Assembly: GCA_017475235.1 (NCBI GenBank)
Contig: JAFVGA010000001.1
Span: forward strand, 181,371 to 245,370
Source: Eubacterium sp.
Lineage (GTDB): Bacteria > Bacillota > Clostridia > Lachnospirales > Lachnospiraceae
Direction of reading: 5' to 3'
Length of the DNA: 64,000 bases
Shown: piece by piece, positions 7,338 through 64,000 of the stretch
Layout: each line of letters starts with the position of its first letter
How positions within the stretch are numbered: position 1 is the first letter of the stretch
The notes under the pieces: model-generated
The model's input: the letters and a program-made list of their open reading frames with translations, nothing else
Told to the model about the DNA's origin: nothing
Database searches by the model: none
Program-made: the position numbers and the translations under genes

Positions 7338-7351
7338 ACTTATATATTATG
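7338..7351 (+). promoter_or_regulatory. AT-rich promoter-like motif A
   Basis: ACTTATATATTATG lies 61 nt before the start at 7413. It matches the motif A core seen mainly in the minus-strand gene bank at 51-61 kb. Confidence 0.4.
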
Positions 7352-7412
7352 TAGTTGTACATTGATACAAATCAAGAAACCGTACTATAATAAAGTTGAA
7401 AGGGATGTTGAG

Positions 7413-27900: not shown

Positions 27901-30900
27901 GCTCTTTTAACTACGCTAGCTATTCTTCTGTAATCAATAATGAATTTGTGGTATATCCACAGATAAAATTATATGATTGCACAAAATATGTCGGTTCTGG
28001 ATTCTTATATAACCATCCGTATTATCCAGAAAAAGATGGGGATATAATTACTCTTCCAGCAAATCTTAAGTTCTTCGGAAACCGTTCTTTCCGTTATACT
28101 ATGTATAAGAAAGTAATAGTCGATACTTATGTGTATTACAGACAAGTACAGTTGAACGATAACTATTCATATTATGGGTATAAAGCCGGAGAAACATCTA
28201 CGTCGACATTTGACTTTATAGAAGATTCAGTCTTCGAAGGATACCCTATCAGTGAAGTTAGAATCGGTAAATACCTTGAGGTATTACCAGAAGTATTCCC
28301 TTATGCTGATAGAATGACGATAGATCCAGAGAATCCAAACTTTGTTATCTCTAATGGATATATATTCAGCCCTGATATGAAGACTCTTTATAGACCAGTG
28401 TGCTATTCGGAATTAGCTGCTATAGAGCCTACAGCTCAGAATAAGTATGTATTCCAGTCAAGTGTTCTTGAAAATATAGTTGATTTCCGTTCTTTCAAAA
28501 ATGATAGACGTATCACTGGCATCGAGATAACTTCGGATAGACTTGTTATTAAGCCTAATAGTTCTGCCACATTATACTTACCAGAAAATTGCGACAGAAT
28601 TATTCTTCCATCGGGTGATTATACTATTCTCGATAGTGATTTCGATAAACTTTCGTATATCGAATTCCTTAATATTACTCCTACATCTAAGTACTATACC
28701 ATCCCAGGATCAGAAGCCGGAGATGTATATAGTAATTTTAATAAGACATATTATTATACAATGAATGATCCTAATTCAATGTCTTCTTCATGGCAAAGCT
28801 TTAGCGTTACTGGTTCAAGAATGATCTTTATTAGACCTGGGGCTAACGTGACTATTCCTAACACTTGTATTGAATTGGGTGGTAAAGTTCAAACTGGCAT
28901 GGTAACTATCCAACAGGATAAAATTACAGAGTTGAATGTAAGTAGTCCTAACGTTAAAGTAGAAGGTTATGATATTGCAGGAGCAAATAGTATTTTCTTT
29001 AAGGATGGTACTGATGCTTATTATACAGTAGATGGCCAAATAAAATCTGATTTTCTTTGGAGTAGAATGAACAAAAACACTGGAAGTCAATCTTCTACTA
29101 CAGTATTCTTATATAAAGTACCTACTGGCCCAGAGATTGATACAATGACTATTAATCTCGATTACGATAAGTATATTAGTCCAGCAGCATTAAAATTCTG
29201 TAATATTTCCAATCTCGTCATTTCTGCTAGAGCTAATCCTAATAATGGAAACGCTAGAAATTATTTCATCTTTAAAATTCCTATCACTACAGAAAGTAAT
29301 AGGAATACTGTTCCTTATGGATTCTTCAATGACTACGATAAGACATTACATTATGATGATGAGAATGTTGCTGATCTAACACAGTATGCAATATCTACCG
29401 GTAATAGAGCATCTTATAATTATGGGTACCTTTTCAATCAAACTCATTATGCTGATGATCAGTTTTTCTTTAATAAATTATGTATGCCAGTTCTTAATAA
29501 CCATCTCGATTCATTAACTATAGATTTTGATCCGACTTTATTGACTGGTAGAATTGGATGGAATGGAATTTATATATCAACAGGTATAACTTTAAAGCAG
29601 GCTAATAATAATTATAGCGCGACTTTTGCTAGCATGTATTATTCAGGTAATGAATGGTTAGTAAACTACTGGGTATTACCAGAGATAGATGATTTCTATA
29701 TTAACTATGATTATACTTCCGGTAATGCAATTTTCCTCCCATTCCCCGTAGATGAAAAGTTTAAGAATATTCACTTTAATCCAGCTTATATAACAGGAAT
29801 TGCAAGAATATCATCTCTTGTTGTATGTGCGGCTGGAGTAAAAATATTCCCGTCAGATCTTCTTGATCAGATCACTAATCATAGTTATAAGCTGTATTAT
29901 TGTCCTGATACAAACCTTTCTTTATCAGCAACAAGTTATACAAATCATACATTCGGTGAACAGAGTGGTTGTCCGTTCCCAAGCAATTCAACTATCACAC
30001 TTACAACATGCTTCGTACATCCTTTATTTGTACATCCGGAAGTATGCTCAGGTATAAATCTCGTTCTTACCGCTGATACAAAGTTCGGATTTTCTACGCA
30101 AATAGTAACAGACCCATCTCTTGTCGGTACTAATAAGAATATGCTTAATCAGTATTCTGATTATATAAGATCCTGGAATTCGTCTTCCTATTTCAATGGA
30201 ACTACTGATCAGCTCGGTAAATATTTTTACTTATTCAGCCCAGCTCTCAGTAAGGCTGCTTATATGGCTAAGCAATTAGCGGTATTCTCACATATCACTT
30301 CCCCAAGATTATTCACATATCTTTTCAGAGCGGTCAATATTTCATCTTCAGATGATACATATAAGATATTTAACGGATCATGGTTTGAATTAAACTGTGT
30401 GACTCTTGTAAGCATCCCGTACTACTGTTTCGATGTAGATACAACAGATGATGTTGTTGGCTCTGGATATAACGTTTTCACATATCAGCAATTCCATGAT
30501 ATGCTCCTGGATCTCACGTCTATAGATGAGGGAAATAAAATACAAATTCCTATAAACCCTAATGGTGATACAGATTACATGCTTAACTCTAATCTCATAG
30601 ATTGGAAAGCTCCTTTCGTATCAAAACAACAAAAACGAATTGATAGTTGGACTATAACAAATTCAACTTTCAATGGATTTGTAGATAGAAACGTATTACT
30701 TCATTTTATTGACCATATCATATATTCTGGAACAGCAACAGCATTTATGATTTTCGGTAAAATAAATGGTAGTGGGTCTTCTTCCAGCTATAATTACAAT
30801 TCAACCAATGATACATATCGCAATAGCTATACATATTTTACTGGAACTGAGGATATCACTGTCACTATAGATCCGGGTTCATTAAGTGATCCTGTTGTAA

Positions 30901-31979
30901 TTGACTTTGGCGGTGCTAGAGTTCAAGATATTCAAAACGCTTCTATTCGTAATTATCTGAAACCTACGTCGTTATACCATAATAATTTTATTATGGACTT
31001 CACTGCCAATAAAAATTATGTCATCAGGCAGATATGTATGCCAAACTGTGATTCGGAGGAATTGGATTTTACACAATATCCTACATGTAATTTCGTTCTT
31101 GGCGATTCAACTAACTTCTATGCTGTAACAGAACATGAAAGATGCTATGCTAAGATTAGCGGATTTAAGAGAGTTGTACTGGGTTCAAATGTTTCTATTT
31201 ATCAAGGCAATGGATCTAGTATTCCAGCTCTTCCTAATATATTATTCTATTCAGCTCAAGTAGAAGAAATAGAGTATCTTGGATCTGAAGTATACGGTAT
31301 TACAAATTATAGCGGCTCAAACAATATATCAACGACATTCGGAAACAATATTACGAATTTCGACACTATATTCTGTGGAGCCGGAGCTAATTCAGGTCTT
31401 ATAGAAGTCGATCTTAATAGGGTTGAAACTATTGTAGGTTGGTCTCAGTATACGACATATACAGATCAAAATACTGTAGGCTATGCATTCTGTTATTGTG
31501 ACTTCACTAATTCATCATTCGATCACTTAATAAGCATTGCATCCAATGGTGGAATCAAATTTTCTGTGTTCGCTTCTCAAATTACCATGCCTAACCTTAC
31601 CTCAATAGGGACTAGTGGTATGAGGGAAAACAGCGGAATTGAAGAATTAAGCATACCTCTGTGCACTAGTCTAGGCGAGTACGCATTTTATCGAAATAGG
31701 GCTCTTGCTACTCTTTCAGCACCATCTCTTGTTACAATTGGAGCCTATGCTTTCTATGATTGTCCAATCTCTGGAGTACTCACTTTAGCGTCTGCAGAAA
31801 CAATTGGTTCTAATGCTTTCAATTCATTAGATATCACAGAAGTATATTTACCATCTGCAACAAATATTGCAGACAACGCATTCTATGCTTGTAGAAATAT
31901 CACCAAAGCTTACATTCCAGCAGGCTGTACTATTTCTATTACATCATTCTTTAATAATACAGAAATCGTTAGAACTTAA
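24903..31979 (+). CDS. Giant repeat adhesin with C-terminal LRR_5 repeats (2358 aa)
   Basis: The start is a TTG at 24903 behind GAGGG; no ATG with a ribosome binding site fits. The N-terminal module (about 28-95) ends 'CVYCVIDMKHKKIIVTDI', and the second module (about 115-235) matches the stub and the 17500 protein. A very long Tyr/Asn/Ser-rich beta-structured middle follows, with scattered degenerate BspA-like units (for example 'GNRSFRYTMYKKVIV'). Clear LRR_5 repeats are at the C-terminus (about 2225-2355: LTSIGTSGM, SLGEYAFYRN, VTIGAYAFYDC, ETIGSNAFN, NIADNAFYAC). A surface-binding role is inferred. Confidence 0.8.
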   Translation: MRYTFLTHTKENNKHYLNLDIDMSTHDFLVESSFIATDVYLGNESVYFNGTLYTAIMVPDTELLFSANDCVYCVIDMKHKKIIVTDIHKAACDSLIVFNNFSNNPTTQFPSQNNILFSKSITIVNDTDRYQDIIMGGCIILENAMSEDGVGSFAMYLDVYFNGKHTYRYTLDCTRKHECLCFDHLFKNVKTNEPIDIYVQYSYGTHIYGGSYVSPTIYNNNVTFYIEGANISYGDSSNIFTYTISDETHSGVSGYGSSLPYATVTGVINSSLTAYRVPDYCTVNGVKYPVKQFNLNTTLPNCKYIAFGNNIEVIICSNVYTNDMTQSPLYSTDYVSAEQSGYFKNKGVIVVYPDSGVRYIYGGDNYNNYGGFYNDQKSYVINGNPERLLYLYYDIGGSSLPRGEYPSLTFDNVGIFYCDNSSMSFRKTNNLTINAKLIGRLYYSNTYYSYRNTSYPGIAALNQSEGGLSIQEPDNTILINLNCEVCNTYYLMYYYHCGRAVWSIDDGVEYDDYKGYDPSVFFPNVVRFYEQKIIFNINGTVVYTSNAYGYISNLYSPETFIKLLTDISENSSTGEITYSVSAPSPSEYNYTVSSYNSWSMVYNYASSLGFNAAVRPWLIINIEGDCYSSLYTSSYYVQIKVTIDGNLHYIPMGAYCYLYNNPFADSYIQNDYYYRDGYYYASDWEVKGTYDISKSFIKTVVRRITERRGWYFDNNGNKLPSYKYFTKVWEPDYAITPSINLASLCSYSLNNTSYFRRFKAHRLAGIVYIPTKYTGTSSYSMYPKAKEGDITTRPNYSYFCNNSWADFSYDEIADDTIILSFGMRDLTNNPIDFSKLSCIGNLYYCNILRIELEDPVVAFLVPPDPSYFYRVSAYTGNYIYDTPDGQWDPNWHTYDDRYDAYIEFNAVCLGNIILQYESEKIPDEEVEENMYIKYRLNCSSATDEDIAEMEEYLSALTEEQRESDSSHNYRKAECDYYRLKLPKKSNIALGVEDFEFDRTSSFNYASYSSVINNEFVVYPQIKLYDCTKYVGSGFLYNHPYYPEKDGDIITLPANLKFFGNRSFRYTMYKKVIVDTYVYYRQVQLNDNYSYYGYKAGETSTSTFDFIEDSVFEGYPISEVRIGKYLEVLPEVFPYADRMTIDPENPNFVISNGYIFSPDMKTLYRPVCYSELAAIEPTAQNKYVFQSSVLENIVDFRSFKNDRRITGIEITSDRLVIKPNSSATLYLPENCDRIILPSGDYTILDSDFDKLSYIEFLNITPTSKYYTIPGSEAGDVYSNFNKTYYYTMNDPNSMSSSWQSFSVTGSRMIFIRPGANVTIPNTCIELGGKVQTGMVTIQQDKITELNVSSPNVKVEGYDIAGANSIFFKDGTDAYYTVDGQIKSDFLWSRMNKNTGSQSSTTVFLYKVPTGPEIDTMTINLDYDKYISPAALKFCNISNLVISARANPNNGNARNYFIFKIPITTESNRNTVPYGFFNDYDKTLHYDDENVADLTQYAISTGNRASYNYGYLFNQTHYADDQFFFNKLCMPVLNNHLDSLTIDFDPTLLTGRIGWNGIYISTGITLKQANNNYSATFASMYYSGNEWLVNYWVLPEIDDFYINYDYTSGNAIFLPFPVDEKFKNIHFNPAYITGIARISSLVVCAAGVKIFPSDLLDQITNHSYKLYYCPDTNLSLSATSYTNHTFGEQSGCPFPSNSTITLTTCFVHPLFVHPEVCSGINLVLTADTKFGFSTQIVTDPSLVGTNKNMLNQYSDYIRSWNSSSYFNGTTDQLGKYFYLFSPALSKAAYMAKQLAVFSHITSPRLFTYLFRAVNISSSDDTYKIFNGSWFELNCVTLVSIPYYCFDVDTTDDVVGSGYNVFTYQQFHDMLLDLTSIDEGNKIQIPINPNGDTDYMLNSNLIDWKAPFVSKQQKRIDSWTITNSTFNGFVDRNVLLHFIDHIIYSGTATAFMIFGKINGSGSSSSYNYNSTNDTYRNSYTYFTGTEDITVTIDPGSLSDPVVIDFGGARVQDIQNASIRNYLKPTSLYHNNFIMDFTANKNYVIRQICMPNCDSEELDFTQYPTCNFVLGDSTNFYAVTEHERCYAKISGFKRVVLGSNVSIYQGNGSSIPALPNILFYSAQVEEIEYLGSEVYGITNYSGSNNISTTFGNNITNFDTIFCGAGANSGLIEVDLNRVETIVGWSQYTTYTDQNTVGYAFCYCDFTNSSFDHLISIASNGGIKFSVFASQITMPNLTSIGTSGMRENSGIEELSIPLCTSLGEYAFYRNRALATLSAPSLVTIGAYAFYDCPISGVLTLASAETIGSNAFNSLDITEVYLPSATNIADNAFYACRNITKAYIPAGCTISITSFFNNTEIVRT

Positions 31980-42255: not shown

Positions 42256-43551
42256 ATGCAACAGATCACAGAACAAGAGCTAATAGATTTCAGAACTAAA
42301 ATAGTCTTTAATCTTCAGTATCCATCGAAAGATATGGACGTGAATGTATTCTTACGTCGTTATAATATTGACGACTTAGCTCAGAAAAAAATTGTTAACG
42401 GTGATGGATTCATCATTAAATCTTCTCAAAAGATTAAGAATGATGTAACAGGTAAAAATGAGAATTCGATATTCTCGCCTAAGTTTGGTAAGACACTTAA
42501 CGACATAAATAATCCTATGTCATCAGATTATAAGTGTTCTTGTGGGGAAACGATAGGTCGTATTTATGAGGGTCATATATGTCCAAAATGTAAGACCAGA
42601 ATAGAATTAAGACCTGTTGACTTTAGTAAGTTTGGATACATTCCAACTTATGGTTATCCGATCATTCATCCGAATCTGTATAGAAGTATCGAAACTTATC
42701 TTGGAGCAAAGATACTTACAGACATATTGATTCCGGAAGAAGAGCTCTCGATAGATGGAACACCTGTAGAGAAAACAGGTAGAAGTTCTCTATCTGCAAG
42801 AGATCAGATTAAGAAGTCTAAGAGAAAGTCAAAGGCGACCAAGAAACGTATGCTGACCGAAACTAAGGCTTCCGCTGACAATCCGTTTTTAGGAATAGGA
42901 ATGTTAGGTTTCTATGAACGATTCGATGAAATCCTAGATTACTATTATCCTAAGAAGCAAAAAGCTGCTAAGGAGATATATCTAGATATAAAGAAAGAGC
43001 GCAAAAATGTGTTCTGTCATTATGTTTCGGTATATACAACACAGTTAAGACCTTTCAGTGTTAACGATAATGTGTTCAACACAGAGGGCAACAATAAGTC
43101 TTTCCAGAATATTGCTAGTTTAAGTAACATGCTGAAGAATCATGCTACACGGTATGGTGATAATCGTAAAGGTATCAATCGTGTCTTGTGGAGAATTCAG
43201 GACAACTGGAATGATATCTATGATGATAATGAGAAAGCACTTGCTGGTAAGAAGGGCGATATTAGAGAATGTATGTCTGCAAGAGTCAACTTCTCTGTTA
43301 GATCAATTATTGTACCAGCAATAGATTTAGAGATGGATGAAATCAGACTTCCATATGCTGCTTGCATGGAACTGTTGAGATTCCATATTATAAATATCTT
43401 GAAGAAATCTTACAGCTATAACTATTCACAGGCTTACTATGAATGGTATAAGGCTAAGATTGCTCCAAACCCAATCATGAAAGAACTTATGATGAATATT
43501 ATTAGAGAGTCTAGATATGGTGGACTTCCAATACTGTTCAACAGAAATCCT
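42256..43551 (+). CDS. rpoC: RNA polymerase beta-prime N-terminal half, exon 1
   Basis: 432 codons. The beta-prime zinc-binding domain is seen as C94, C96, C109, C112 (CSCGETIG...CPKC). Downstream, ARVNFSVRSIIVPAIDLEMD matches bacterial 'KRVDYSGRSVIVVGPEL', and the exon stops at ILFNRNP, the start of the LNRAPTLH motif. Splicing to exon 2 joins NRNP to TIQYGS, restoring that motif in frame. Without splicing the frame ends 9 codons later (KLVGGIIER, then stop). Start at 42256 behind AAAGGATGGGG. The full spliced product is 546 aa. Catalytic residues are in exon 2. Confidence 0.9.
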
Positions 43552-43907
43552 AAACTTGTGGGCGGTATTATCGAAAGATAGTGCTGCATTACTTACCAAA
43601 AAGCTGGGAAGTTGTAAAGCTCTCTTGCCCTAGTGGAATCGAAAGATAGAAATAAGTAGAGAGATGGGCTATGCTGAAATAAAAGCTTGCTATGTACACC
43701 GTATGCATATCAAGTGCTAAGGTCTATCAACAATCAATTATCAGCACTTTTAACAAAGTTCGACGGCTATCCCTGAAATGGGAGTAGGATTCAAGCGAAT
43801 CCGGAACGGTAAGCATCTAAGTATCGAAAGATATATGATGGAGATATAGCCTGATCTTCTGGAGAAATACCAGAGAGTGATGTAGCGAATCACGTAACAC
43901 AAAAATG
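43552..43907 (+). ncRNA. Group I self-splicing intron (td-like, IA2 type), no ORF
   Basis: A 356-nt insert ending in G after a 5' exon ending in U, as group I introns require. The core matches the T4 td intron by eye: ACGGCTATCCC...GGGAGTAGGATTCAAG (43762-43795) and GGAGATATAGCCTGATC (43840-43856, P7 region). Three GAAA-capped hairpins occur (TATCGAAAGATA at 43569-43580 and 43822-43833; a similar one at 43638). The third sits on a CUAAG/UAUG internal loop like the 11-nt tetraloop receptor. P1 is short: CCU at the exon end can pair with GGG at 43560-43562. No homing endonuclease is encoded. Confidence 0.9.
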
Positions 43908-44252
43908 ACAATACAATACGGCTCTATTCTTATGATGAAATGCATCGGTATTACTGATTCATATTCTATGCAGGTTAACTCATTATGTTTGAGATATATC
44001 GCAGGCGACTATGATGGTGATACAATCAATAATATATTGCTTCTTAATGATGATATCATAAAGCGAGCAATGATCACATTGAATCCAGTCAACGCAATGA
44101 TTATAAGTAAGAATGACGGTACATTCAATCCGGATGCTAACTTACAGACTGAATCATTGATAACAATCAACACAATTAGACATTTAGCTGAGAGATACTC
44201 TGAAGAAGAGGAAGCTATGTTTGCTGATTGTCTCAGTTGTGCACCGGCTTAA
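43908..44252 (+). CDS. rpoC: RNA polymerase beta-prime N-terminal half, exon 2
   Basis: 114 codons that hold the catalytic magnesium site: RYIAGDYDGDTINN, equivalent to bacterial YNADFDGDQMA, with all three aspartates kept. It begins TIQYGSILMMK, completing the NRxPT(L/I) motif begun in exon 1. The ATG at 43905 straddles the intron end and is not a true start; no ribosome binding site precedes it. The exon ends at 44252, just before AAGGAGG of the next gene. Confidence 0.9.
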   Translation, partial: TIQYGSILMMKCIGITDSYSMQVNSLCLRYIAGDYDGDTINNILLLNDDIIKRAMITLNPVNAMIISKNDGTFNPDANLQTESLITINTIRHLAERYSEEEEAMFADCLSCAPA

Positions 44253-53181: not shown

Positions 53182-53787
53182 TTATTCTTTTGAAACGAGA
53201 CAGTAGGCTACAATCAAGTCCATCAGCTCATCCATTGCTTCCGAGTTTTGTTTGTTTGAAACATTTGTATCCAGAGCACCCTTGGTTTTTATTTTGTGTG
53301 CCATATTCTCAACAGAGCGAATAGTTCTCCCTAACAACATTGCTATCTGGCTACTTGGTACACCATCAGCTTTGAGAATTAAAAGTATTTCTTTTTCTTC
53401 AAAACTCCAGGTTCTGTTATAATTGTGTGCTGTTAGTTTTGACTTATTGTTAGCATTCGTGTGGTTCCGCTTATTATTTTCCTTATGTCTATCTTTGTTA
53501 TTTTCATACCAGTTTCGACTCCATTCTTTACATTGTTCTTTATTCCTTTGGTAATAATCGGCTGATCGTTTTTTAACAGAGTCCTTATTCTGTCGTTGAT
53601 ACTCTTTTACCTTTCCATTTATATTTTCTTTATTCCTTTGGTAATACTCTTTTTTCCTTGCCGATATACGATCTTTATTCTTTTGATAGTATTCTCTATA
53701 TTTGTTTTTGTGCTCTTCTTTATCTATAAAATTCTCGTAATACATTTTGTTGTACCCTTTTCTCTTTTCTTCATCTTTATATGGCAT
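53182..53787 (-). CDS. Repeat/HTH protein, paralogue 1 of 3 (201 aa)
   Basis: The N-terminal half is made of about five 14-17-residue repeats of the form (D/E)YYQ(K/R)NK(D/E)..., very rich in Lys, Tyr and Asn, probably a long basic helix. The C-terminal half (about 125-170) is a SANT/GcrA-type helix-turn-helix: WSFEEKEILLILKADG then SQIAMLLGRTIRSVENM. A DNA-binding regulator or nucleoid-type protein is likely. YYxxNK repeats also occur in phage endonucleases and HTH proteins. It overlaps in style with the next two genes, spaced by 1 nt each. Start behind AGGAGG. Confidence 0.8.
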   Translation of the reverse strand: MPYKDEEKRKGYNKMYYENFIDKEEHKNKYREYYQKNKDRISARKKEYYQRNKENINGKVKEYQRQNKDSVKKRSADYYQRNKEQCKEWSRNWYENNKDRHKENNKRNHTNANNKSKLTAHNYNRTWSFEEKEILLILKADGVPSSQIAMLLGRTIRSVENMAHKIKTKGALDTNVSNKQNSEAMDELMDLIVAYCLVSKE

Positions 53788-53788
53788 A

Positions 53789-54313
53789 CTAATCTCCTCC
53801 TAAGCTAGAGTTGATATGATACAGTTCTATTAAATCCTGTAATTCATTTATCGACTCCATCCTTTGTTTTCTATGTATTCTACCTATTTTGCTTTGTACT
53901 GACTCTCTTGATCGACCTAAGGCAATAGCTATTTCTGTACAAGTAAGACCTTCTTTCCGAAGTTCAAACAATGTTGCCTCTTCTTCGGCAGTCCATATAG
54001 CTCTTTTAGCACTAGCTAAGCGTTTATTGCACGCATAAACCACTGCTTTACTGTTTTTATTGTAATCACGCATATATTGCCTATGATATTTTTGTATTCG
54101 GTCTTTATTGTTTTGATAGTAATTGCGCATATATTGCGTATGCTGTTTTGATATTTTCTCTTTATTGTTTGCATAGTATCGCCTCGCAGACTCCCTCTCT
54201 TCTTCTCTATGTTCGGCATAGTATCGCTTTCTGTATTCGTTTTCCTTCTCTTTATTCACAGCATGGTATCTTTTTCTGTATTCCTTTGCTTTTTCTTTAT
54301 CTTTATATCCCAT
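53789..54313 (-). CDS. Repeat/HTH protein, paralogue 2 of 3 (174 aa)
   Basis: Same build as its neighbours: MGYKDKEKAKEYRKR start, four to five YY/Y-x-NK repeats with inserted QYMR segments, then an HTH (IWTAEEEATLFELRKEG; CTEIAIALGRSRESVQSKI near 110-150). The C-terminus, LQDLIELYHINSSLGGD, is nearly the same as in paralogue 3, so 2 and 3 are the closer pair. AGGAGG precedes 54313. Confidence 0.8.
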   Translation of the reverse strand: MGYKDKEKAKEYRKRYHAVNKEKENEYRKRYYAEHREEERESARRYYANNKEKISKQHTQYMRNYYQNNKDRIQKYHRQYMRDYNKNSKAVVYACNKRLASAKRAIWTAEEEATLFELRKEGLTCTEIAIALGRSRESVQSKIGRIHRKQRMESINELQDLIELYHINSSLGGD

Positions 54314-54314
54314 A

Positions 54315-54776
54315 CTAATTACCTCCTAAATTGGAATTGATGTAATAGAGTTCAATCAAATCCAGTAGCTCTTCCATAGCTTCTGAATTCTGCTCTTTAA
54401 CAAAAACACCCTGTTTATATAATTTATTAACGGCGGCGTTAATAGACTTAATAGATCTTCCTAACAACTCTGCTATTTCTCTATTCGTTACACCTTCATC
54501 TTTAAGTTTTCTAACCATCTCAATTTCATCGAGACTCCAGCGCTTGTGTGTATTATATGCCGTTTCTCTCGTTTTGTCGTTAGCTTTTTTCTGATTCCTA
54601 GTAGCATTTGCGATAACCCTATCTTTATTTTCAGTATACCATTTATGAGAGTATTCGCTGAGACGCTCTTTATTCTTCTGATAATACTCAGCTGCTCGTT
54701 TACTAATTTCGTCTTTATGCTGATAGTAATACTCTCTGGTTGCCTCCCTTTTCTTTTCTTTATCTTTGTATGCCAT
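54315..54776 (-). CDS. Repeat/HTH protein, paralogue 3 of 3 (153 aa)
   Basis: MAYKDKEKKREATREY start, three YY.(K/H)NK repeats, then the HTH (RWSLDEIEMVRKLKDEG; NREIAELLGRSIKSINAAV near 80-120) and a LLDLIELYYINSNLGG tail. Shortest of the trio because it has fewest repeats. First gene of the unit, with motif A about 40-60 nt upstream. Start 54776 behind AGGGAGG. Confidence 0.8.
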   Translation of the reverse strand: MAYKDKEKKREATREYYYQHKDEISKRAAEYYQKNKERLSEYSHKWYTENKDRVIANATRNQKKANDKTRETAYNTHKRWSLDEIEMVRKLKDEGVTNREIAELLGRSIKSINAAVNKLYKQGVFVKEQNSEAMEELLDLIELYYINSNLGGN

Positions 54777-56086: not shown

Positions 56087-57502
56087 TTATACAAGAATAC
56101 TATTAATCATGGCTTCAGATATATTATATATATCTTTTTCACCCACGGTTCGTTTTCCTGTCATTAAATTTACAGCAAAATACTCCTCATTAAGATCTTG
56201 GAAAACCTTAACCATAGGAGTATCTTTTAATAAATTGTTGACGTATCGTAGCTTTTGTACATCCAAAACTTCGAATAATGGATCCAGTTTACCGCCGTTA
56301 CAAGCGTACTTATATTCAGCTTCAAATGTAGCCATAGCAGTTCTAAAGCATTCGATTTTAGCTTCAATATCTATTGGGGTTAAGAAGTCATAACACTCTA
56401 ATTGTTCATCACAGAGTTTCTTATGACCAGTGAATAGTTCAAAGATATAGTCATCCGATACAGTCTTCTTAGACTTGTAATCTTCAAATAGCTTCTTCAA
56501 TAGATCTACGGAGTCATCTCCATTATATTGGAATATATTACACGAAGCATCTTTAATATCTTCCATTTTCTTTTTGGCAAGTGCTTTATTATCCACGCAC
56601 ATCAAGTAATCTCCAATAACGTTATTGGTTACACCAACAGCTCGCTTATTTCCAAGCTTATAGTCGACCAAATATACATGAGGAGTTACATCTGTTCTAG
56701 GTAAAGCACATCCAAATCCAGCGTGTTCGTTAATATGCGTCACCTTCTTATCTGGTTCATCACTTCTTGATTGTTCTTTTAAGTCGATAAAGATATCAAT
56801 CAATTGGATGAAGTTGTTGTTTGTTAGTCTTAGATAGTTATACTTTCCTAACTTGACAATAGCATCTTCTTTAGCGACAGTCTTTGCTCTCGTTTCAGGC
56901 ATATTGGTCTTATTAGGATTATCTCCGCCATCTTTTACTTCTATAATAAGATTATACGGTAAGTAATAAAAGTCTGTTATATAGTTCTTCTTCTTACCAT
57001 TATAATTATACTCTATAGTAGGACCAGGAGCAATAATGTCTTCAGATGATATATCCATTACTTGATCCATGAACTCCAATAGTTTGTGTTCATATGAACC
57101 AGTATAAGATACATATCCTCCATCTTTAAATTTATATTTACCGGATATTTTACGATTAGCAAGCATATGCTTCTCTTGCCACTCTACATCATCTAATAGA
57201 GTTTCTTTACCATATACTTTAATCATATTCTTCTGTGCATTCTCCCGCATCTTCTTCTTACATTCGTCAGAGCAATACACTTTATATCTTCCAGACTTAG
57301 GATCCCATTCTGTCGGGGACTTACATATATTACAAGAGCCATGTCCATTACCGACATCTTTATTATTACATATATCAAAAACAAGACGTTCCGTAGTATA
57401 GTCTTGAGGAATCATATCTTCATGCATACGATTTATATGAGTAACAAGAGCAGATCGCTCATACTTCTTGTTACAGTATATGCATTTATACTTCTTTCCC
57501 AT
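56087..57502 (-). CDS. Zinc-finger plus Vsr/PD-(D/E)XK-like nuclease (471 aa)
   Basis: Probable sequence-specific endonuclease. A C2H2 finger at C7, C10, H22, H27 and a second four-cysteine finger at C57, C60, C77, C81. Then a Vsr/EDxHD-like core: E138 in SYEHKLLEF, TDFYYLP with D177, IIEVKDGG with E188 and K190, and YLRLTNNNF after it. About 250 further residues have no family I can name. The architecture resembles free-standing homing endonucleases of large phages (for example the I-Bth0305I class). AAGGAGG precedes 57502. Confidence 0.75.
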   Translation of the reverse strand: MGKKYKCIYCNKKYERSALVTHINRMHEDMIPQDYTTERLVFDICNNKDVGNGHGSCNICKSPTEWDPKSGRYKVYCSDECKKKMRENAQKNMIKVYGKETLLDDVEWQEKHMLANRKISGKYKFKDGGYVSYTGSYEHKLLEFMDQVMDISSEDIIAPGPTIEYNYNGKKKNYITDFYYLPYNLIIEVKDGGDNPNKTNMPETRAKTVAKEDAIVKLGKYNYLRLTNNNFIQLIDIFIDLKEQSRSDEPDKKVTHINEHAGFGCALPRTDVTPHVYLVDYKLGNKRAVGVTNNVIGDYLMCVDNKALAKKKMEDIKDASCNIFQYNGDDSVDLLKKLFEDYKSKKTVSDDYIFELFTGHKKLCDEQLECYDFLTPIDIEAKIECFRTAMATFEAEYKYACNGGKLDPLFEVLDVQKLRYVNNLLKDTPMVKVFQDLNEEYFAVNLMTGKRTVGEKDIYNISEAMINSILV

Positions 57503-57692: not shown

Positions 57693-58268
57693 CTAAAATC
57701 CTTTCATGTACCGTACTCCATGTACATCTAATTGTGGGTAGTTATCTAGCCACGATTTAACCTCAGCTAAAACTTTTGGTTCTTTCCCATAACCAAGATA
57801 TCGTCCACATCCGACATTTAATCTGAGTTCATCTATTATCTCAAATATAATGTCATAGTATTCTTCCCACTTATCAGCTATATCCTTTTTATTATATGGC
57901 TCACCGGTATATCCTCCATTTAAGCAGTCTTTTGGATCAAGAAGTCTGCATTCATACGGACGATCCTCGAAATCTAATCGGCAACCTATGTCAGTTAGAT
58001 TCAGGCAGGTGCCTCCGCAGAGACCGCCGTAGCAAACATCTAAAGATCCTCTTGGCCTTAAGTAAGGATGCAAGCAGAACTCTTCGTCCTCATAACCATC
58101 AATGGAAATTCTTCCATTCTTGATAAGATTAAGCATTCCACCTTTTGTAAGCTGATCTGCCGTAAAATCTTCAGGAAGATACGCTCCTGGATTATTCTTA
58201 CAACACTTCCCACCACAGGCGGAACATTTTTCTTTATTTTCGTTCTTCATAACAATCTTCTTCAGCAT
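57693..58268 (-). CDS. YkgJ-type cysteine cluster protein (191 aa)
   Basis: A putative zinc/iron-chelating protein of the YkgJ/CxxCxxxCC family. The cluster is seen as CSACGGKCCKN near the N-terminus, with further conserved-looking cysteines (EFCLHPYL; CYGGLCGGTCLN; IGCRLDFEDRPYECR). Such proteins bind a metal cluster; the role in phage is unknown. Start ATG 58268 behind AGGAGG, overlapping the upstream gene by 35 nt. After its stop the +1 frame stays open for about 31 codons (see findings). Confidence 0.75.
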   Translation of the reverse strand: MLKKIVMKNENKEKCSACGGKCCKNNPGAYLPEDFTADQLTKGGMLNLIKNGRISIDGYEDEEFCLHPYLRPRGSLDVCYGGLCGGTCLNLTDIGCRLDFEDRPYECRLLDPKDCLNGGYTGEPYNKKDIADKWEEYYDIIFEIIDELRLNVGCGRYLGYGKEPKVLAEVKSWLDNYPQLDVHGVRYMKGF

Positions 58269-58797
58269 TGTATTTGAACCTCCTAACGTTCTGCTCACGC
58301 ATAACGTACTTTGCATTCATTTCCTTGAACTTTGTAAGTGACGTTTTTACCATAACGAAATTACCACTAAAGTCCAGTATATGGTCTGCCGTCATGTAGC
58401 CGTGCGAACAAGCCACACCCATATTTTGCCAATTGAAGTTTGATTCTTTGTCAACTATAAAGAACACTGCTACGGTATCCCAGTTTACGTGTCTTCCACG
58501 CATTTTATCAGAGTGTGCGAAATTCATGAAAATATAATTCGATACCATTTCCAAGGACTCATCCATAGCATGATTAGACCAGTCGCAAATGGTTATCACG
58601 GTATCAACAATACTATGGCACATATCAAATATTTCCGAATTAATGATCCCTAGATCATCGTCATTCATAGGATTAATTCTCGTGTCAATAATATTGAATG
58701 CCGCTTCAACATTATGACCGCAACGAGTGTTTTCTGCAGTTTCTTCAAGACGCACTTTTGTGTATCCTGGACGTACTGTTCTTTCATTTATATCCAT
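58234..58797 (-). CDS. Unidentified 187-aa protein
   Basis: Not recognised. ATG 58797 behind CCGGAGG is favoured over a longer frame from 58911. Mixed alpha/beta with an acidic N-terminal half (DIINSEIF-like helices) and basic C-terminus (REQNVRRFKYNAEEDCYEERK region, read in parts). Co-transcribed with the YkgJ-type gene, which it overlaps. Confidence 0.75.
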   Translation of the reverse strand: MDINERTVRPGYTKVRLEETAENTRCGHNVEAAFNIIDTRINPMNDDDLGIINSEIFDMCHSIVDTVITICDWSNHAMDESLEMVSNYIFMNFAHSDKMRGRHVNWDTVAVFFIVDKESNFNWQNMGVACSHGYMTADHILDFSGNFVMVKTSLTKFKEMNAKYVMREQNVRRFKYNAEEDCYEERK

Positions 58798-58857
58798 TAT
58801 TAACCTCCGGAGCACGGATGAGTTCTTTATAACCTTTTTGGTATCCGCACTACATAT

Positions 58858-58873
58858 GAATAATATATAAGTG
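58858..58873 (-). promoter_or_regulatory. AT-rich promoter-like motif A
   Basis: Minus strand CACTTATATATTATTC, about 60 nt before ATG 58797 and right behind the hairpin at 58881. Confidence 0.45.
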
Positions 58874-58880
58874 AAAACAA

Positions 58881-58908
58881 TTTCACGGGGTAACAATACC
58901 CCGTGAAA
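58881..58908 (-). terminator. Strong hairpin, probable terminator
   Basis: TTTCACGGGGTA / TACCCCGTGAAA (12-bp perfect stem, loop ACAA) with TTGTTTTC after it on the minus strand. Ends the 58935-59423 gene. Confidence 0.75.
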
Positions 58909-58934
58909 CATTTTGCAATAAGAAATATAATAGA

Positions 58935-59423
58935 TTATGCTTCTTCGTCTTTTTCTGTGCCGAAGTTTACTCTGATAGAACCATTTGCTACATCACGCAT
59001 GATATCTTCAGAGAGTCCATTAAAATTTCCGTAGAAGTCCGATGTATCATCGTTATAAAACTGGATAACTTCCTTCTTGAAAATTACATATGTCTCTGAT
59101 GGTGAAAGAGGAGTAGCAACTTCCTGAATCTGAGAAACTCTTGGATTACCAGCAAATGCAGTCTTAAAGAGTGCAGCAACAGATTCTTTTTCTGCATTCT
59201 TTACAAGACACTTTACAGTAACAGTGATATTACCAAATGCCTTCTGTGGTTCAAGAATCTTTTCAAGAGCCATGATCTTAAAAGTATTCTCTGATTCGAT
59301 AGTGATAGTATAAGTATCCTGATCGAATTTTACTGTGAGGTCTTTATCTTCTCCAAAGAGAGCCATAAGCTTTTTAGAGTAAGTAACCCAAGGACTTGAA
59401 AGCCCTGTCTTCTGCTTTTCCAT
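58935..59423 (-). CDS. Unidentified 162-aa protein
   Basis: Not recognised. Start ATG 59423 behind GAAAGGCGG; an in-frame TTG further up is less likely. It opens MEKQKTGLSSPWVTYSKKL and has a beta-rich core (YTITIESENTF; ITVTVKCLV), ending in an acidic tail (FGTEKDEEA). A stand-alone transcript with a palindrome at 59460 upstream. Confidence 0.8.
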   Translation of the reverse strand: MEKQKTGLSSPWVTYSKKLMALFGEDKDLTVKFDQDTYTITIESENTFKIMALEKILEPQKAFGNITVTVKCLVKNAEKESVAALFKTAFAGNPRVSQIQEVATPLSPSETYVIFKKEVIQFYNDDTSDFYGNFNGLSEDIMRDVANGSIRVNFGTEKDEEA

Positions 59424-59459
59424 TCGATTACCGCCTTTCAATTTTTATATAATACATTT

Positions 59460-59477
59460 AAGATGTGTACACATCTT
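59460..59477. promoter_or_regulatory. Perfect 18-nt palindrome
   Basis: AAGATGTGTACACATCTT lies between the stop of the 241-aa gene and the start of the 162-aa gene. With no T-run after it, an operator for a dimeric regulator is as likely as a terminator. Confidence 0.35.
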
Positions 59478-59501
59478 TATCAAAATGTTTTATTATTTTT
59501 C

Positions 59502-60227
59502 TTAATCGTCTTCATCTTCATCATCTTCGTCGTCATCATAAAACGGATCTTCACAGAATATTTCAACTCCGAAGTTTTCTTTTGTATAAGGATTAAATTT
59601 CCATCCATATTTACCATATACGTCTCCATCTTCATTAGGATAACGAAGAAAGTTAGCAAAGGAATTAGTGTGAGTATTAGTCTCGCTTCCATTAGCCGAA
59701 TGAGTTATTATAGTATATTCAAAAGTCTTATCACTGAGTAAATCAGGACAGTTCTTTTCAACCCATTCTCTAGAAGCGGAAATACAATAGTGTTCAGACA
59801 TATCTATATTTCCAAATTTAACTGCGAGCTTATTCTCTTTACACCAATCAGGATCAGAAAACTTTCTGGTTGAAATCCAAGTAGAGAAAGGCTCGACATC
59901 AGGATAATCTCTTCCTCCAAACCAGTTATTGAGTTCAAAATAAACAACATTCTTTTTCTTTTCTTCTTCATACTTATTGATGAAGTCTTTAAGTCTATCT
60001 ATATCGTCGTCATTTACTTTAGACACATCCAAGTTTTTAGTAAGAAATACACATTGGATGTTATTACTTTTTGCTAAACGACCAAATTTCACTAAGTTTC
60101 TAAGAGTATCTCTAGATGTAGACATCGGATCTAATCTCACACAGAGCGTATCTCCGGAACTTAAATTGAGTGTGTCTTTAAAGATGTTTTTCAGCGTATG
60201 ATGCTTTTTTCTTTGACGTGTATTCAT
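59502..60227 (-). CDS. Unidentified 241-aa protein with acidic tail
   Basis: Not recognised. Start 60227 behind AAAGAGG. The N-terminal half looks like an alpha/beta domain (DTLCVRLDPMSTSRDTL; IQCVFLTKNLDVSK), perhaps a Rossmann-like or radical-enzyme-like layout, but no motif is decisive. The last 12 residues are Asp/Glu (DDDEDDEDEDD). First or second gene of a minus-strand run. Confidence 0.75.
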   Translation of the reverse strand: MNTRQRKKHHTLKNIFKDTLNLSSGDTLCVRLDPMSTSRDTLRNLVKFGRLAKSNNIQCVFLTKNLDVSKVNDDDIDRLKDFINKYEEEKKKNVVYFELNNWFGGRDYPDVEPFSTWISTRKFSDPDWCKENKLAVKFGNIDMSEHYCISASREWVEKNCPDLLSDKTFEYTIITHSANGSETNTHTNSFANFLRYPNEDGDVYGKYGWKFNPYTKENFGVEIFCEDPFYDDDEDDEDEDD

Positions 60228-60255
60228 ATTAATCCTCTTTCATATTTGGTTAGAA

Positions 60256-60444
60256 TTATTTTTGGATTTCGTATCTAAGGAATCTTACTATCGATTTAGT
60301 CGGTTCGATAGCAATATCTCCTCGTTTAACAAGCGACATTATCATGCCCTGAATCTGATCGTCCTCAAATCCTAAGTTTTTCATTCGGTTGATATATTCG
60401 CTAAGCGGTAATGATTTAGTCTTTGCTTCTGCAACAGTATTCAT
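60256..60444 (-). CDS. 62-aa helical protein
   Basis: Start 60444 behind AGAGGAAGG. It contains an HTH-like stretch (LPLSEYINRMKNLGF then DDQIQGMIMSLVKRG), so a small DNA-binding protein is possible. Otherwise unidentified. Confidence 0.6.
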   Translation of the reverse strand: MNTVAEAKTKSLPLSEYINRMKNLGFEDDQIQGMIMSLVKRGDIAIEPTKSIVRFLRYEIQK

Positions 60445-60475
60445 TATTATATCTTCCTTCCTCTACAAAATTGGT

Positions 60476-60562
60476 TCAGTTGTGTGAATCTATAAGATAA
60501 AAGATAAATCCACCAACCCACCCTATAAGTACACATAGTAGAAATGTTGCTTTTGAAATCAA
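60476..60562 (-). CDS. 28-aa transmembrane peptide
   Basis: TTG start at 60562 with GGAGGTGAG at good spacing. The peptide MISKATFLLCVLIGWVGGFI and eight more residues form one membrane helix. It is placed between two small genes. Too small to assign. Confidence 0.55.
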   Translation of the reverse strand: MISKATFLLCVLIGWVGGFIFYLIDSHN

Positions 60563-60599
60563 CTTTCTCACCTCCACAAAATTAATTTCGATTCAATAA

Positions 60600-60983
60600 T
60601 TATTCGAACACTACTGAATCGTACGGAGAATATTTTAAAATCATAGAAGCTAAAAACTGTTTTTCATGATCGTTTAAGTCAAATATTAAATACGATCCAT
60701 TTCGTTTTTCCATCAATTCTAAAACAGAATCATATTCATTCTCTGTTTTTTCGACTTCATAATGTGCGTGATATTTAGGTTTTAACTCTCCAGTATCAGA
60801 TAATTCTGTTACATCGTGTATGGTTAGCTTGAACTTTTTTTCGGCATATCCATAAGCTAGCGTCTTGTCTAAGAAGACCGAATCAAAATCATCAAGAATC
60901 AAACGATATTTAACAACATTATCCTGTTCATATGACATGACTTTTGCGTTACCTTTTATATCGACCTTTATGATATCTACCAT
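60600..60983 (-). CDS. Unidentified 127-aa protein
   Basis: Not recognised. Start 60983 behind GGAGGTGAGAAG. Beta-rich N-terminal half (VDIIKVDIKGNAKVM) and an acidic, aromatic C-terminal half (SYLIFDLNDHEKQFL). The same GGAGGTGAGAAAG-type leader is used by the 28-aa peptide downstream. Confidence 0.7.
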   Translation of the reverse strand: MVDIIKVDIKGNAKVMSYEQDNVVKYRLILDDFDSVFLDKTLAYGYAEKKFKLTIHDVTELSDTGELKPKYHAHYEVEKTENEYDSVLELMEKRNGSYLIFDLNDHEKQFLASMILKYSPYDSVVFE

Positions 60984-61742: not shown

Positions 61743-61889
61743 TTAATCAATTCCTAAAGCTTCACGAATTTGATTTATGTCATTTTCTGTAAGCTTCGGA
61801 TAGTCGGCAAGGATGTCCTCAAAAGATTCACCGCTTGCCATTCTGCGAGTAAATACTGACACCATGAGTTTAAGTTTTGCATTACTCAT
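61743..61889 (-). CDS. 48-aa protein, DUF433/XkdX-like
   Basis: ATG 61889 behind GGAGGTGACGAAG, overlapping the upstream gene by 4 nt. It reads MSNAKLKLMVSVFTRRMASG then SFEDILADYPKLTENDI. The second part resembles the 'peeILedYPhLt..di' signature of DUF433 antitoxin-like HTH domains; small XkdX-like proteins downstream of tail-fibre genes in clostridial phages are a second possibility. Last gene of the DGR transcript. Confidence 0.6.
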   Translation of the reverse strand: MSNAKLKLMVSVFTRRMASGESFEDILADYPKLTENDINQIREALGID

Positions 61890-62149
61890 TCTTCGTCACC
61901 TCCGAAAAGTAACTCAGCAAGGACATCTTCAATCTCTGCTGTTCTATCCTCTGTTGCCCATAATTCTTTTACATACTCATATACATCTTTCTTAATCTTT
62001 ACATATTCGAATTCATAGTATGTTTCAGAGCCACCGTTGTCTGTTTCTCTCTGTTTTTCAGTAAAATTACGATACAAATATACATATGTCGCTGATGATG
62101 TATCATCTATAGCGGGCAGTATTTCTGTACTTGTGCCTTTCTTCCACAT
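61886..62149 (-). CDS. 87-aa protein downstream of the DGR reverse transcriptase
   Basis: ATG 62149 overlaps the reverse transcriptase stop (TAATG), with AAAAGGAGG inside the RT gene's end. It has a beta-rich N-terminal half (ATYVYLYRNFTEK) and a helical acidic C-terminal half (KKDVYEYVKELWATEDRT, then EDVLAELLFGG). It is shorter than, and not obviously like, the Avd accessory protein of DGRs; it resembles small proteins that follow tail genes in Firmicutes phages. Translational coupling implies a shared role or common mobilisation with the DGR. Confidence 0.65.
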   Translation of the reverse strand: MWKKGTSTEILPAIDDTSSATYVYLYRNFTEKQRETDNGGSETYYEFEYVKIKKDVYEYVKELWATEDRTAEIEDVLAELLFGGDEE

Positions 62150-63216
62150 TATTGCATCCTCCTTTTAGCATCATCTGATATGATCTTTTTAAGATTATCG
62201 AAATTTACATATGGATTTATATACTTATTCACGAAATCATATGAATCTGTATGTTTTATCCATCCATAATACGCAAGCATTCTGCGTGCATCAGCTACTG
62301 TTATAGTTTCTTTCTTACTAAGTTTATATGCTAATTTCATAGCTTTTCGTGCTATAGATCTTCGCATAGTAGTGTGATCTCTGTAAAATCTGAATCCCAT
62401 GAAGTCAAGGAAACGTCCTTTATGGTCTTTCGTGTCAAATCGGAATATCTGCCAGTTATCCTTGAACCAAACATGAAGTTGTTCTTGTAGAAATTCAAGC
62501 ATCAGATCTTTATCTTTATGAAGTTCTTTCTTGTTAGAGCCGAATATAACCATATCATCCATATAACGCATATAGTATTTTACACCCAGCTGTTCTTTTA
62601 CATAGTGATCGAAATCCTGTAAATAGAAATTAGCAAACCACTGTGAAGTATAGAATCCTAATGGTAAACCTCTGTCTGTTGTACGTATTATTTTAATAAG
62701 TAAATCCATGAATCGGTCATCGTCAATTATTCTTTTGAGCTTATCAATAAGAATATCTTGATCGATGTTTTCAAAGAATTTTCTTATATCGAATTTACCA
62801 CAGTATTTGATGTGTCTACCACCTTCTTCTATCCATTTCTTCATTCTTGCTGCACCATTGTGACAGCCTCGGTATGGGATAGAAGCATAAGAATGCTCGT
62901 ACATACCTTTCATAAAGATTGGCTTTAGTACCAACATTACGGCATGTTGCGTAATATGCTCACCTATAGTCGGAACAATTATTTCACGTTTCTTTTGAGT
63001 GATACCGTCGTTAATTATCATTGGTGTATGCTGTGCTGGAATATAGTTTTCTATCTTCTCGCGTATCTCCGGAATCTTACTTTCAATATAAAAGTTAATA
63101 TCCAAAAGTATAGCTTGACGTTTTCCTCTGACAGCACCATGCGATGCATTATACACAGCTTCTCTGATATTTTCATCCGATATTAATTCTTCCCATAAAT
63201 GATTATAGGTTTTCAT
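62149..63216 (-). CDS. DGR reverse transcriptase
   Basis: A 355-residue reverse transcriptase of the diversity-generating retroelement type. Motif A KFDIRKFFENID (D143), the DGR-diagnostic motif GLPLGFYTSQ (183-192; G-x-x-x-SQ in place of the usual QG), and catalytic YMDD at 218-221. A thumb-like basic helical region follows to residue 355. It would make adenine-mutated cDNA from the template repeat RNA for transfer into the variable repeat. ATG 63216 behind AAAGGA. No maturase zinc finger or endonuclease domain. It is encoded directly downstream of the template repeat. Confidence 0.95.
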   Translation of the reverse strand: MKTYNHLWEELISDENIREAVYNASHGAVRGKRQAILLDINFYIESKIPEIREKIENYIPAQHTPMIINDGITQKKREIIVPTIGEHITQHAVMLVLKPIFMKGMYEHSYASIPYRGCHNGAARMKKWIEEGGRHIKYCGKFDIRKFFENIDQDILIDKLKRIIDDDRFMDLLIKIIRTTDRGLPLGFYTSQWFANFYLQDFDHYVKEQLGVKYYMRYMDDMVIFGSNKKELHKDKDLMLEFLQEQLHVWFKDNWQIFRFDTKDHKGRFLDFMGFRFYRDHTTMRRSIARKAMKLAYKLSKKETITVADARRMLAYYGWIKHTDSYDFVNKYINPYVNFDNLKKIISDDAKRRMQ

Positions 63217-63248
63217 TTTCTCTTATCCTTTCTTGACCGCTTTCTTAT

Positions 63249-63298
63249 TTATTTCTATAGAGTAGGCGCATATGCACCCACTCAAAATATAGAAATAA
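63249..63298 (-). ncRNA. Long hairpin in the TR-RT spacer
   Basis: Outer arms TTATTTCTATA / TATAGAAATAA (11 bp) and an inner stem closing on GCATATGC. In minus-strand RNA the inner stem is fully paired because two positions form G-U pairs; in plus-strand RNA they would be A-C mismatches. This points to function in the RNA that carries the template repeat, possibly as the 3' structure bound by the reverse transcriptase. Confidence 0.6.
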
Positions 63299-63391
63299 TA
63301 CTTACTAACAGTCGTATGTCGAAAGCAAATTTCACCAAGGGGTGAGGATTTAATGAAGCAAGTTTGTAAAGCTTTTAAATAAGGATTAGTT

Positions 63392-63492
63392 AGAGCGCCC
63401 CCGATATTCCAATTCGCATTCCCAGCGCCATTGTTCAGATTGACATAGAACCCGCAATTCGAGCCATTGTCGGAATTGCCACCCAGAAGGGC
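63392..63492 (-). repeat. DGR template repeat (TR)
   Basis: 101 nt aligned without gaps to the variable repeat at 63648-63748. The coding-strand sequence carries 21 adenines; 16 of them differ in the variable repeat and no other base does. Its would-be translation (GGNSDNGSNCGFYVNLNNG) is rich in AAT/AAC codons, which are diversification sites. Located between the target gene and the reverse transcriptase. Confidence 0.95.
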
Positions 63493-63622
63493 CACACGAA
63501 GGGCTTTTGCTTCATTAAACCCTATATTATTATATGTGTTCAAACAATAATAATTTTCTATGAAGAAACTTGCTTAATTCCAATTTTTCGGAGACAACTA
63601 CGTTTTCTCCAAACCTCTTTCC

Positions 63623-64000
63623 TTAGCCGACCTGCGGTCGGCAAGAGAGAGCGCCCCCGATAGTCCAACCCGCAACCCCAGCGCCAACGCCCAGACTGAC
63701 AGAGAACCCGCAATGCGAGCCACAGCCGGAATCGCCACCCAGAAGGGCATAATTTGATTGCCTGTTGTTTACATAGTAATAGTTACAGTAGTATGTTGCA
63801 TCAGTGCCCGCAGTTTCGATGATCTTATATCCCATCGTATTGTCTGCTTGCATCTTCTTAACAAATCCATCTGTACCGTAGGTTGAACCATAATTAAGAT
63901 AACCAGCACCTGTTGGGTTATATCCAATAGCAGAGCTACCATCTGCAACACCATAAGTCATTTTGACTTTAAGAGTACCGTTATCATTAATGAGACCAGC
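63623..64000 (-). CDS. DGR target protein, C-terminal C-type-lectin-like domain (5' end outside the window)
   Basis: 125 codons are visible, running in from the right edge with no start in view. The C-terminus reads as a DGR ligand-binding fold: SNYALLGGDSGCG, CGFSVSLGVGAG, WTIGGALSCRP. The last part is the variable repeat (63648-63748), whose residues are set by mutagenic retrohoming. Eleven codons differ from the template. The preceding region (GSSAIGYNPTGAGYLNYG...) is a Gly/Tyr/Ser-rich stalk. Likely a receptor-binding tail-tip protein. It ends CRPQVG within a DNA hairpin. Confidence 0.9.
   Translation of the reverse strand, partial: AGLINDNGTLKVKMTYGVADGSSAIGYNPTGAGYLNYGSTYGTDGFVKKMQADNTMGYKIIETAGTDATYYCNYYYVNNRQSNYALLGGDSGCGSHCGFSVSLGVGAGVAGWTIGGALSCRPQVG
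63626..63642 (-). promoter_or_regulatory. Hairpin/cruciform just after the variable repeat
   Basis: GCCGACC / GGTCGGC (7-bp stem, 3-nt loop), beginning 5 nt beyond the variable repeat and overlapping the stop codon. DGRs such as that of phage BPP-1 have a short inverted repeat at this position that raises retrohoming efficiency; the loop here is shorter than the usual four nt. Confidence 0.7.
63648..63748 (-). repeat. DGR variable repeat (VR)
   Basis: 101 nt at the 3' end of the target gene, identical to the template except at 16 template adenines (11 codons changed: N to D, C, H, S, G, V, V, G, T; D to G; Y to S). The invariant GGGGGCGCTC at its 3' end is the likely initiation-of-mutagenic-homology (IMH) region; beyond it the two repeats diverge. 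Confidence 0.95.

Follow-up and report, generated by a model that had tools for sequence, protein, structure and literature searches.

An Avd-less diversity-generating retroelement on a jumbo-phage contig in a Eubacterium sp. genome assembly

The right edge of a 64,000-nucleotide stretch of Eubacterium sp. DNA (GenBank assembly GCA_017475235.1, contig JAFVGA010000001.1, positions 181,371 to 245,370 of the forward strand; hereafter the window) carries a diversity-generating retroelement (DGR) with a reverse transcriptase (RT), a template repeat (TR) and a variable repeat (VR), the latter lying in a tail-fibre-type target gene. The window forms the right end of a contig that we call C26, and all coordinates are window positions unless prefixed C26:. 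This is very probably a working DGR of a jumbo tailed phage that lacks the accessory protein Avd, that reached the phage as a cassette block probably derived from an ordinary phage and that re-draws the tip of a fibre. Judged by its sequence, the element itself is a canonical, ordinary Avd-less DGR of a known kind. New here are the jumbo-phage host, which is uncommon, and an open reading frame (ORF) of 87 codons, ORF87, as a candidate accessory gene. The features are as follows, the loci and phage records used for comparison being designated by L numbers.

62149..63216, minus strand: DGR-type RT, 355 aa (RVT_1, E = 4.9e-16; phrog_1423, E = 3e-96), with the motifs LGFYTSQ and YMDD; in a clade with L003, L004, L005 and L026
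63392..63492, minus strand: TR, 101 nt on re-alignment, with 21 of 21 adenines conserved in the TR of L003
63648..63748, minus strand: VR, 101 nt, with 16 differences from the TR, all at template A
63626..63642, minus strand: GC-rich inverted repeat with a 7 bp stem and a GCA loop, a candidate homing hairpin or cruciform, 5 nt 3' of the VR and directly before the target stop codon
63623..64000, minus strand: 3' end of the target gene, 125 codons and stop, encoding a tail-fibre-type protein and cut by the contig end (PHROG 5302 'tail protein', E = 3.6e-15; 78% identity to residues 510–631 of the L003 target)
C26:1-1137, outside the window, same strand: 5' portion of the target gene, 379 codons of open frame truncated by the contig end, with its last 170 aa 81% identical to residues 233–402 of the L003 target
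61886..62149, minus strand: ORF87, 87 aa, RT-linked family, candidate accessory factor, overlapping the RT stop by one base
61743..61889, minus strand: ORF48, 48 aa, DUF433 (PF04255, E = 4.6e-7), carried along as a cassette passenger in its nearest relatives, with homologues in the same place in L003, L004 and L005

Repeats and reverse transcriptase

An earlier note on this DNA, made from the letters alone, had placed target, VR, TR and RT in this order on one strand, and all of them indeed lie on the minus strand. Its comparison of the two repeats is reproduced to the base by our re-alignment: over 101 gap-free nucleotides there are 16 mismatches, and 16 of 16 fall on a template adenine. The chance that 16 mismatches all land on 21 adenines among 101 positions is 1.3e-14. 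Five of the 21 adenines are unchanged in the VR, which the note had taken as the remainder left by random mutagenesis and which agrees with the 25% expected for random replacement (binomial p = 1.0). The template adenines occupy codon position 1 ten times, codon position 2 eleven times and no other position; the codons that hold them are nine AAY together with GAC, TAT and ATC, and 11 codons are altered in the VR. At the 16 mismatches the VR of the window has G ten times and T and C three times each.

The same adenine rule holds among the relatives of the RT, of which viral contigs supplied 62 loci and genome contigs 20. A TR/VR pair that obeys it stands beside the RT in 53 of the 62 viral loci, and in 16 of the 18 genome loci examined (L114 and L115 were left out of the 20; L109 and L116 gave no pair). 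With adenine-neutral scoring of 64 distinct TR/VR pairs, 952 of 995 mismatches are at template A and two have A in the VR. Over these pairs the letters in the VR are uneven, with 512 G, 298 T, 183 C and 2 A.

The 3'-terminal 15 nt are the same in TR and VR (the initiation of mutagenic homing, IMH, region), and the GC-rich inverted repeat follows the VR. No hairpin of the VR type was seen behind the TR of the window. In a set of 70 rows that retains near-duplicates (53 from viral contigs, 16 from genomes and the window itself), stems of at least 6 bp are found behind 28 of 70 VRs versus 7 of 70 TRs. When 7 bp with no fewer than 4 GC are demanded, 7 VRs versus 2 TRs are left, with a shuffled expectation of 0.6. 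The cis elements of a DGR, an identical 3' end and a hairpin behind the VR, are thus present, and their function in homing is predicted.

In the mechanism that we propose, the TR would be transcribed, the RT would copy this RNA while placing random bases opposite adenines, and the resulting cDNA would home to the VR and replace it, starting from the GC-rich 3' end that is identical in both repeats and from the hairpin. Eleven to twelve codons would be re-drawn in the C-type-lectin-like tip of the tail-fibre-type protein, a tip that would most likely be receptor-binding, and ORF87 would serve either the RT or the fibre. The VR lies at the 3' end of a target with a C-type-lectin fold, as the earlier note had read it, the fold of the L003 target being counted in support.

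The reading frame of the RT is unbroken, with LGFYTSQ starting at residue 186 and YMDD at residue 218, so that the DGR-specific GxxxSQ motif and the intact YMDD noted earlier are both in place. In a tree of 62 hand-chosen rows, rooted at the midpoint, it groups with named phage DGR RTs, and three non-DGR-looking RTs of relatives fall apart from these; BPP-1 and one of the three form long branches, and one row (L112) was translated out of frame with 13 stops and is unreliable. The partners of the window RT are L003 (support 100/100), followed by L004 (100/99), L005 (96/91) and L026 (100/99). It is extremely improbable that the RT belongs to another class (group II intron, retron or DRT) with the repeat being incidental. 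Models of such classes do match it (TIGR04416 with 107 bits, Drt3a with 77), as do 59 PADLOC families at E up to 0.01, but the NCBIfam scores stay well under the curated cut-offs of 300 and 200, respectively. The protein moreover has the DGR motif (L/I/V)GxxxSQ, and in eight of the nine viral relatives where no adenine-rule pair adjoins the RT, the contig ends within 450 nt of the RT start.

Concerted change of template and variable repeats

The TRs of the window and L003 differ at 13 non-A positions, and 13 of 13 are mirrored by each VR. Both VRs likewise follow 15 of 15 such differences to L004, 26 of 26 to L026 and 23 of 24 to L005. Since each VR follows its own TR at the 13 non-A positions, homing has most likely taken place since the window and L003 separated, in at least one of the two lineages, as far as can be told from sequence. 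At the 21 template adenines common to the two TRs, the VRs differ at 15 sites.

A similar pattern is seen between close relatives. From 35 near-identical locus pairs we chose the 16 in which both members have TR and VR (pairs share members). The VR has changed in 11 of these, overwhelmingly at template-A sites, and in five no change is seen. L108 and L110 differ at 14 of 24 template-A VR sites and at 0 of 86 other VR, 0 of 110 TR and 0 of 3145 flanking positions. L045 and L046 differ at 11 of 20 template-A sites, 1 of 93 other VR positions and 1 of 3106 in the flank, and L034 and L035 at 18 of 27 template-A sites, 1 of 88 other VR, 0 of 115 TR and 4 of 2072 flanking positions.

These comparisons bear on whether the element is a relic, a former DGR that is now inactive in this phage. 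The target gene, incomplete in the assembly, leaves some room for such a relic. Against it, the RT frame is intact with both motifs, all template adenines are shared with L003 and there are zero non-A differences between TR and VR, although 13 non-A positions of the TR differ from L003. Because an inactive element would accumulate non-A differences, we regard a relic as very improbable. The description of the DGR as active-looking is supported by the adenine-only differences, the RT motifs and the concerted evolution of TR and VR.

Jumbo-phage location and origin of the cassette

The assembly comprises 1.45 Mb in 26 contigs and is about 76% complete; C26 makes up about 17% of it and is presumably a binning guest, the choice being between a binning guest and an episome. 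C26 is a jumbo phage with a multi-subunit RNA polymerase: it exceeds 200 kb and contains β and β' genes. Two RNA polymerase β-type proteins are found (phrog_3148, E = 6e-128; phrog_3015, E = 5e-48), with tblastn matches to PBS1, S6 and LPJP1, together with a GroEL-like protein, a helicase, a DNA polymerase and homologues of phiKZ gp50 (DNA polymerase) and gp55. The RNA polymerase-encoding jumbo phages (PBS1, the staphylococcal S6 group, Listeria LPJP1 and phiKZ) resemble C26 in their multi-subunit RNA polymerase, DNA polymerase and size, but differ in that the RNA polymerase is only about 27–31% identical. The top ten phage matches of the C26 β' protein are 26–31% identical to it; Listeria LPJP1, Bacillus Goe21 and jumbo phages of staphylococci are among them. 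Chimalliviridae are nucleus-forming jumbo phages with the shell protein chimallin and PhuZ. Neither phiKZ gp54 nor PhuZ has a match in C26, but gp54 as the only shell-protein query recovers 95 phage records that are all named for Gram-negative hosts.

The right edge of the window is the end of C26 (245,370 bp), and the target gene is cut there. A 5' part of it is found at the other contig end, and the codons absent from the assembly number 107 by comparison with L003 and with L004 and 114 by comparison with L005. There is no terminal overlap between the ends of C26. The homologues of an endonuclease gene (56087–57502) and of C26:1240-1611, which stand at opposite contig ends, are direct neighbours in the jumbo phage L137 (a 183.7 kb record whose β' is 58% identical to that of C26) and have a single gene between them in L145 and L146, the arrangement in L133 and L134 being different or not covered. 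The interval taken up by the DGR, the target gene and several small ORFs (57693–60983) is almost empty in L137. As both ends lie in the target gene and the genes next to them are adjacent in L137, C26 is best read, on sequence comparison, as a cut circle in which the DGR is part of the jumbo phage. Single-protein queries with the genes at 59502–60227 and 56087–57502 returned no relatives in viral contigs; such empty answers mean little, because tblastn found relatives of 56087–57502 in L133, L137, L145 and L146.

The DNA similarity to L003 (77%) runs from the window edge to 61721, just past ORF48, and then ends; at the left contig end it begins about 210 codons into the target gene. Since this similarity spans the block and stops, the target C-terminus, VR, TR, RT, ORF87 and ORF48 look transferred together. 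The probable donor of the cassette is an ordinary phage whose RT falls in the same branch, and the whole block would have passed from it into the jumbo phage. L003, L004, L005 and L026, the nearest cassette relatives, are on contigs of 41, 36, 45 and 112 kb, and no clear jumbo genes were seen in the stretches of them that were compared. The non-cassette proteins of C26 have no match in the compared stretches of L003, L004 and L026 and two weak matches (26% and 33%) in that of L005. By eye, the genes downstream in L003 look like HK97-type head genes.

The abrupt start of the L003 similarity at 61721 and a contig end inside the cassette would also be expected if the last ∼2.3 kb came from an ordinary phage and had been wrongly joined to the jumbo contig. 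Such a chimera would need two separate false joins into one gene: the 5' part of the target is at the opposite contig end on the same strand, with similar numbers of missing codons by all three relatives, and its first 206 codons are unlike L003. The adjacency in L137 of the genes from both ends also argues against it, as does L048, an independent example of a DGR in such a phage. We therefore consider an assembly chimera very unlikely and retain the reading of a DGR that belongs to the jumbo phage.

Several points weigh against this reading as a whole. About 107 target codons are not in the assembly, which makes an intact target gene a presumption, and target residues 1–206 have almost no relatives among the loci compared. 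L137, the closest jumbo relative, reaches only 58% in β' and does not supply an empty site exact to the base. That the donor-like phages are of ordinary size is presumed from the lengths of their possibly incomplete contigs. One of the 24 non-A differences to L005 is unmirrored, and the case for current activity in this phage comes from sequence comparison.

A second cassette is found in L048/L136, a 17.6 kb contig that is a fragment of a jumbo phage (β' 47%). It has its own TR/VR pair, with 13 of 13 mismatches at A, and its target is a leucine-rich-repeat (LRR) fibre. The RT (L048 4771–5993) is interrupted and falls into two ORFs, though its TR/VR pair obeys the adenine rule, and it belongs to another supported branch of the tree (99/96). 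On both sides the main flanking pieces are 88–93% identical in DNA to L135, L138 and L142. The section L136 ∼5078–8294 (target C-terminus, VR, TR, RT and an ORF87-type gene) is without counterpart in these three, so that the cassette was either gained in L048 or lost in them. Given the different RT branch and the cassette-free relatives, two captures in two jumbo lineages would be the simplest reading of the sequences. Among 15 such jumbo records, several of them fragments, RVT_1 is missing in 13 and present in that of L048 and in another jumbo phage, L149 (record G070, 333 kb; RVT_1, E = 4.5e-11).

Some further observations concern C26 as a whole. Behind the phiKZ gp55 homologue (RNA polymerase, 42256–43581) comes a short frame (43905–44252) that contains a DYDGD motif, and a separate β' gene lies at C26:3847-5562; together with the gp55 homologue this perhaps makes two RNA polymerases. 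Three tandem small proteins at 53182–54776 appear related by eye, with charged repetitive N-termini and a helix-turn-helix-like C-terminus. A 2358-aa protein (24903–31979) ends in BspA-type leucine-rich repeats (PF13306, E = 1.4e-22), and it and its 2249-aa neighbour have repeats in common with LRR fibre genes of other jumbo phages. The phage-like contig G021:C94 (180 kb, from a same-genus assembly) was tried for comparison and rejected as too distant, with 7 of 199 C26 ORFs matching at 23–35%.

Absence of Avd, ORF87 and known systems

The earlier note had seen no Avd-like gene between TR and RT, and the absence extends further: PF22296, a model that does match BPP-1 Avd, finds none in the whole assembly (∼76% complete) at E up to 1, and phmmer with BPP-1 Avd finds none in C26. 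Among the relatives, phmmer detects Avd only in the distant loci L055, L056, L060–L064, L115 and L117. About one quarter of DGRs are without an accessory-gene homologue according to the accessible text of PMC7290462.

From the 82 loci, 42 of the Avd-less branch were chosen, and in 39 of these the gene behind the RT belongs to the ORF87 family by an iterative profile trained on them. The best PHROG of the family is 20201, of unknown function (11 of 14 members). As tblastn with ORF87 gave no match in 50,697 phage records, profiles were used. The 14-row profile A3, run against two overlapping draws of genomes, 146 from the order and 391 from the class, finds five places beyond the window, the weakest at E = 5e-4, and all five are directly behind an RT that is 43–73% identical to DGR RTs of the set.

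Whether ORF87 is a DGR accessory protein is a separate question, and on this sequence evidence we put the chance that it is somewhat under one half. Slightly favoured over an accessory role is a tail-module protein that replaces the gene usually preceding xkdX. An ORF87-type gene stands before xkdX in FP_Epona, L153 and L154, and in L104 (7062–7433) an ORF87-type protein appears by eye to be fused to an XkdX-like C-terminus. Profile matches at E = 0.1–8 land on the pre-xkdX gene of several RT-less prophages, and ORF87 is without a clear counterpart in crAssLMMB (E = 0.1) and LBR48 (E = 0.16), which are DGR phages from the wider branch as well. That the profile was built from RT-adjacent members only weighs against the accessory role as well. 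The genomic distribution, in contrast, speaks for a link to the RT. The 146 genomes contain 25 xkdX loci: one with a DGR RT of this group matches the profile (E = 1.4e-20; it is one of the five places), another with a distant RT has no clear match (0.087), and the 23 without an RT hit have no match below E = 0.1, the upstream gene being cut off in L158. Wu et al. 2018 are cited in the available text of PMC10053308 as proposing one further DGR-linked protein without Pfam.

The closest parallel in anatomy is crAssphage LMMB, which as described in PMC7290462, in its accessible text, has the same target–VR–TR–RT order, no Avd and a C-type-lectin tail target, and is filed there under RT lineage 3 of Wu et al. 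It differs in that its RT is 34% identical, no clear ORF87 homologue is present and its genome of ∼98 kb is not jumbo. Butyrivibrio phage Arawn and Faecalibacterium phage FP_Epona belong to the same wider RT branch and have the same small gene behind the RT (E = 2e-21 for FP_Epona and 2e-6 for Arawn in a six-sequence test), with XkdX next in both phages. They are 31–50 kb phages with RTs 44% (Arawn) and 33% (FP_Epona) identical, and their xkdX position is taken by the DUF433 gene in the window. Bordetella phage BPP-1 (mtd/avd/brt) shares adenine mutagenesis, a C-lectin target, the (I/L)GxxxSQ and YMDD motifs and a hairpin a few nucleotides behind the VR, which the available text of PMC3240598 describes as required for efficient homing; unlike in the window, an Avd gene separates VR from TR in BPP-1.

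Phage DGRs are abundant in the gut (PMC8241571 and PMC8144416, as far as their accessible text goes). No description of a DGR in a jumbo phage was found in the literature searched, whose coverage left out most subscription papers and all preprints, and the catalogue tables of PMC8241571 may hold cases. In the accessible part of Roux et al. 2021 (PMC8144416) 'jumbo' and 'Avd' are unmentioned. A survey of 224 jumbo phages reports no FGS (C-type-lectin-fold) domains in the available text of PMC7824862, and the RT of staphylococcal jumbo phages is said in that of PMC10638138, citing Korn et al. 2021, to be without characteristic DGR regions.

A broader interpretation would join two claims: that the C-lectin fibre tip, VR, TR, RT and ORF87 form a mobile plug-in that passes between unrelated tailed phages, including at least two jumbo lineages, and replaces or extends the resident fibre tip, and that ORF87 is a new accessory protein filling the role of Avd in a large branch that lacks it. 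Taken together, these seem doubtful to us. On its own, ORF87 is a testable candidate for the replacement of Avd. L048, with its 88–93% identical cassette-free relatives, shows how a DGR may be captured, by C-terminal fusion to an existing fibre gene. Some jumbo phages shield their DNA in a shell. A DGR inside a jumbo phage that has its own RNA polymerases, and possibly such a shell, raises the question of how TR RNA, RT and target DNA meet.

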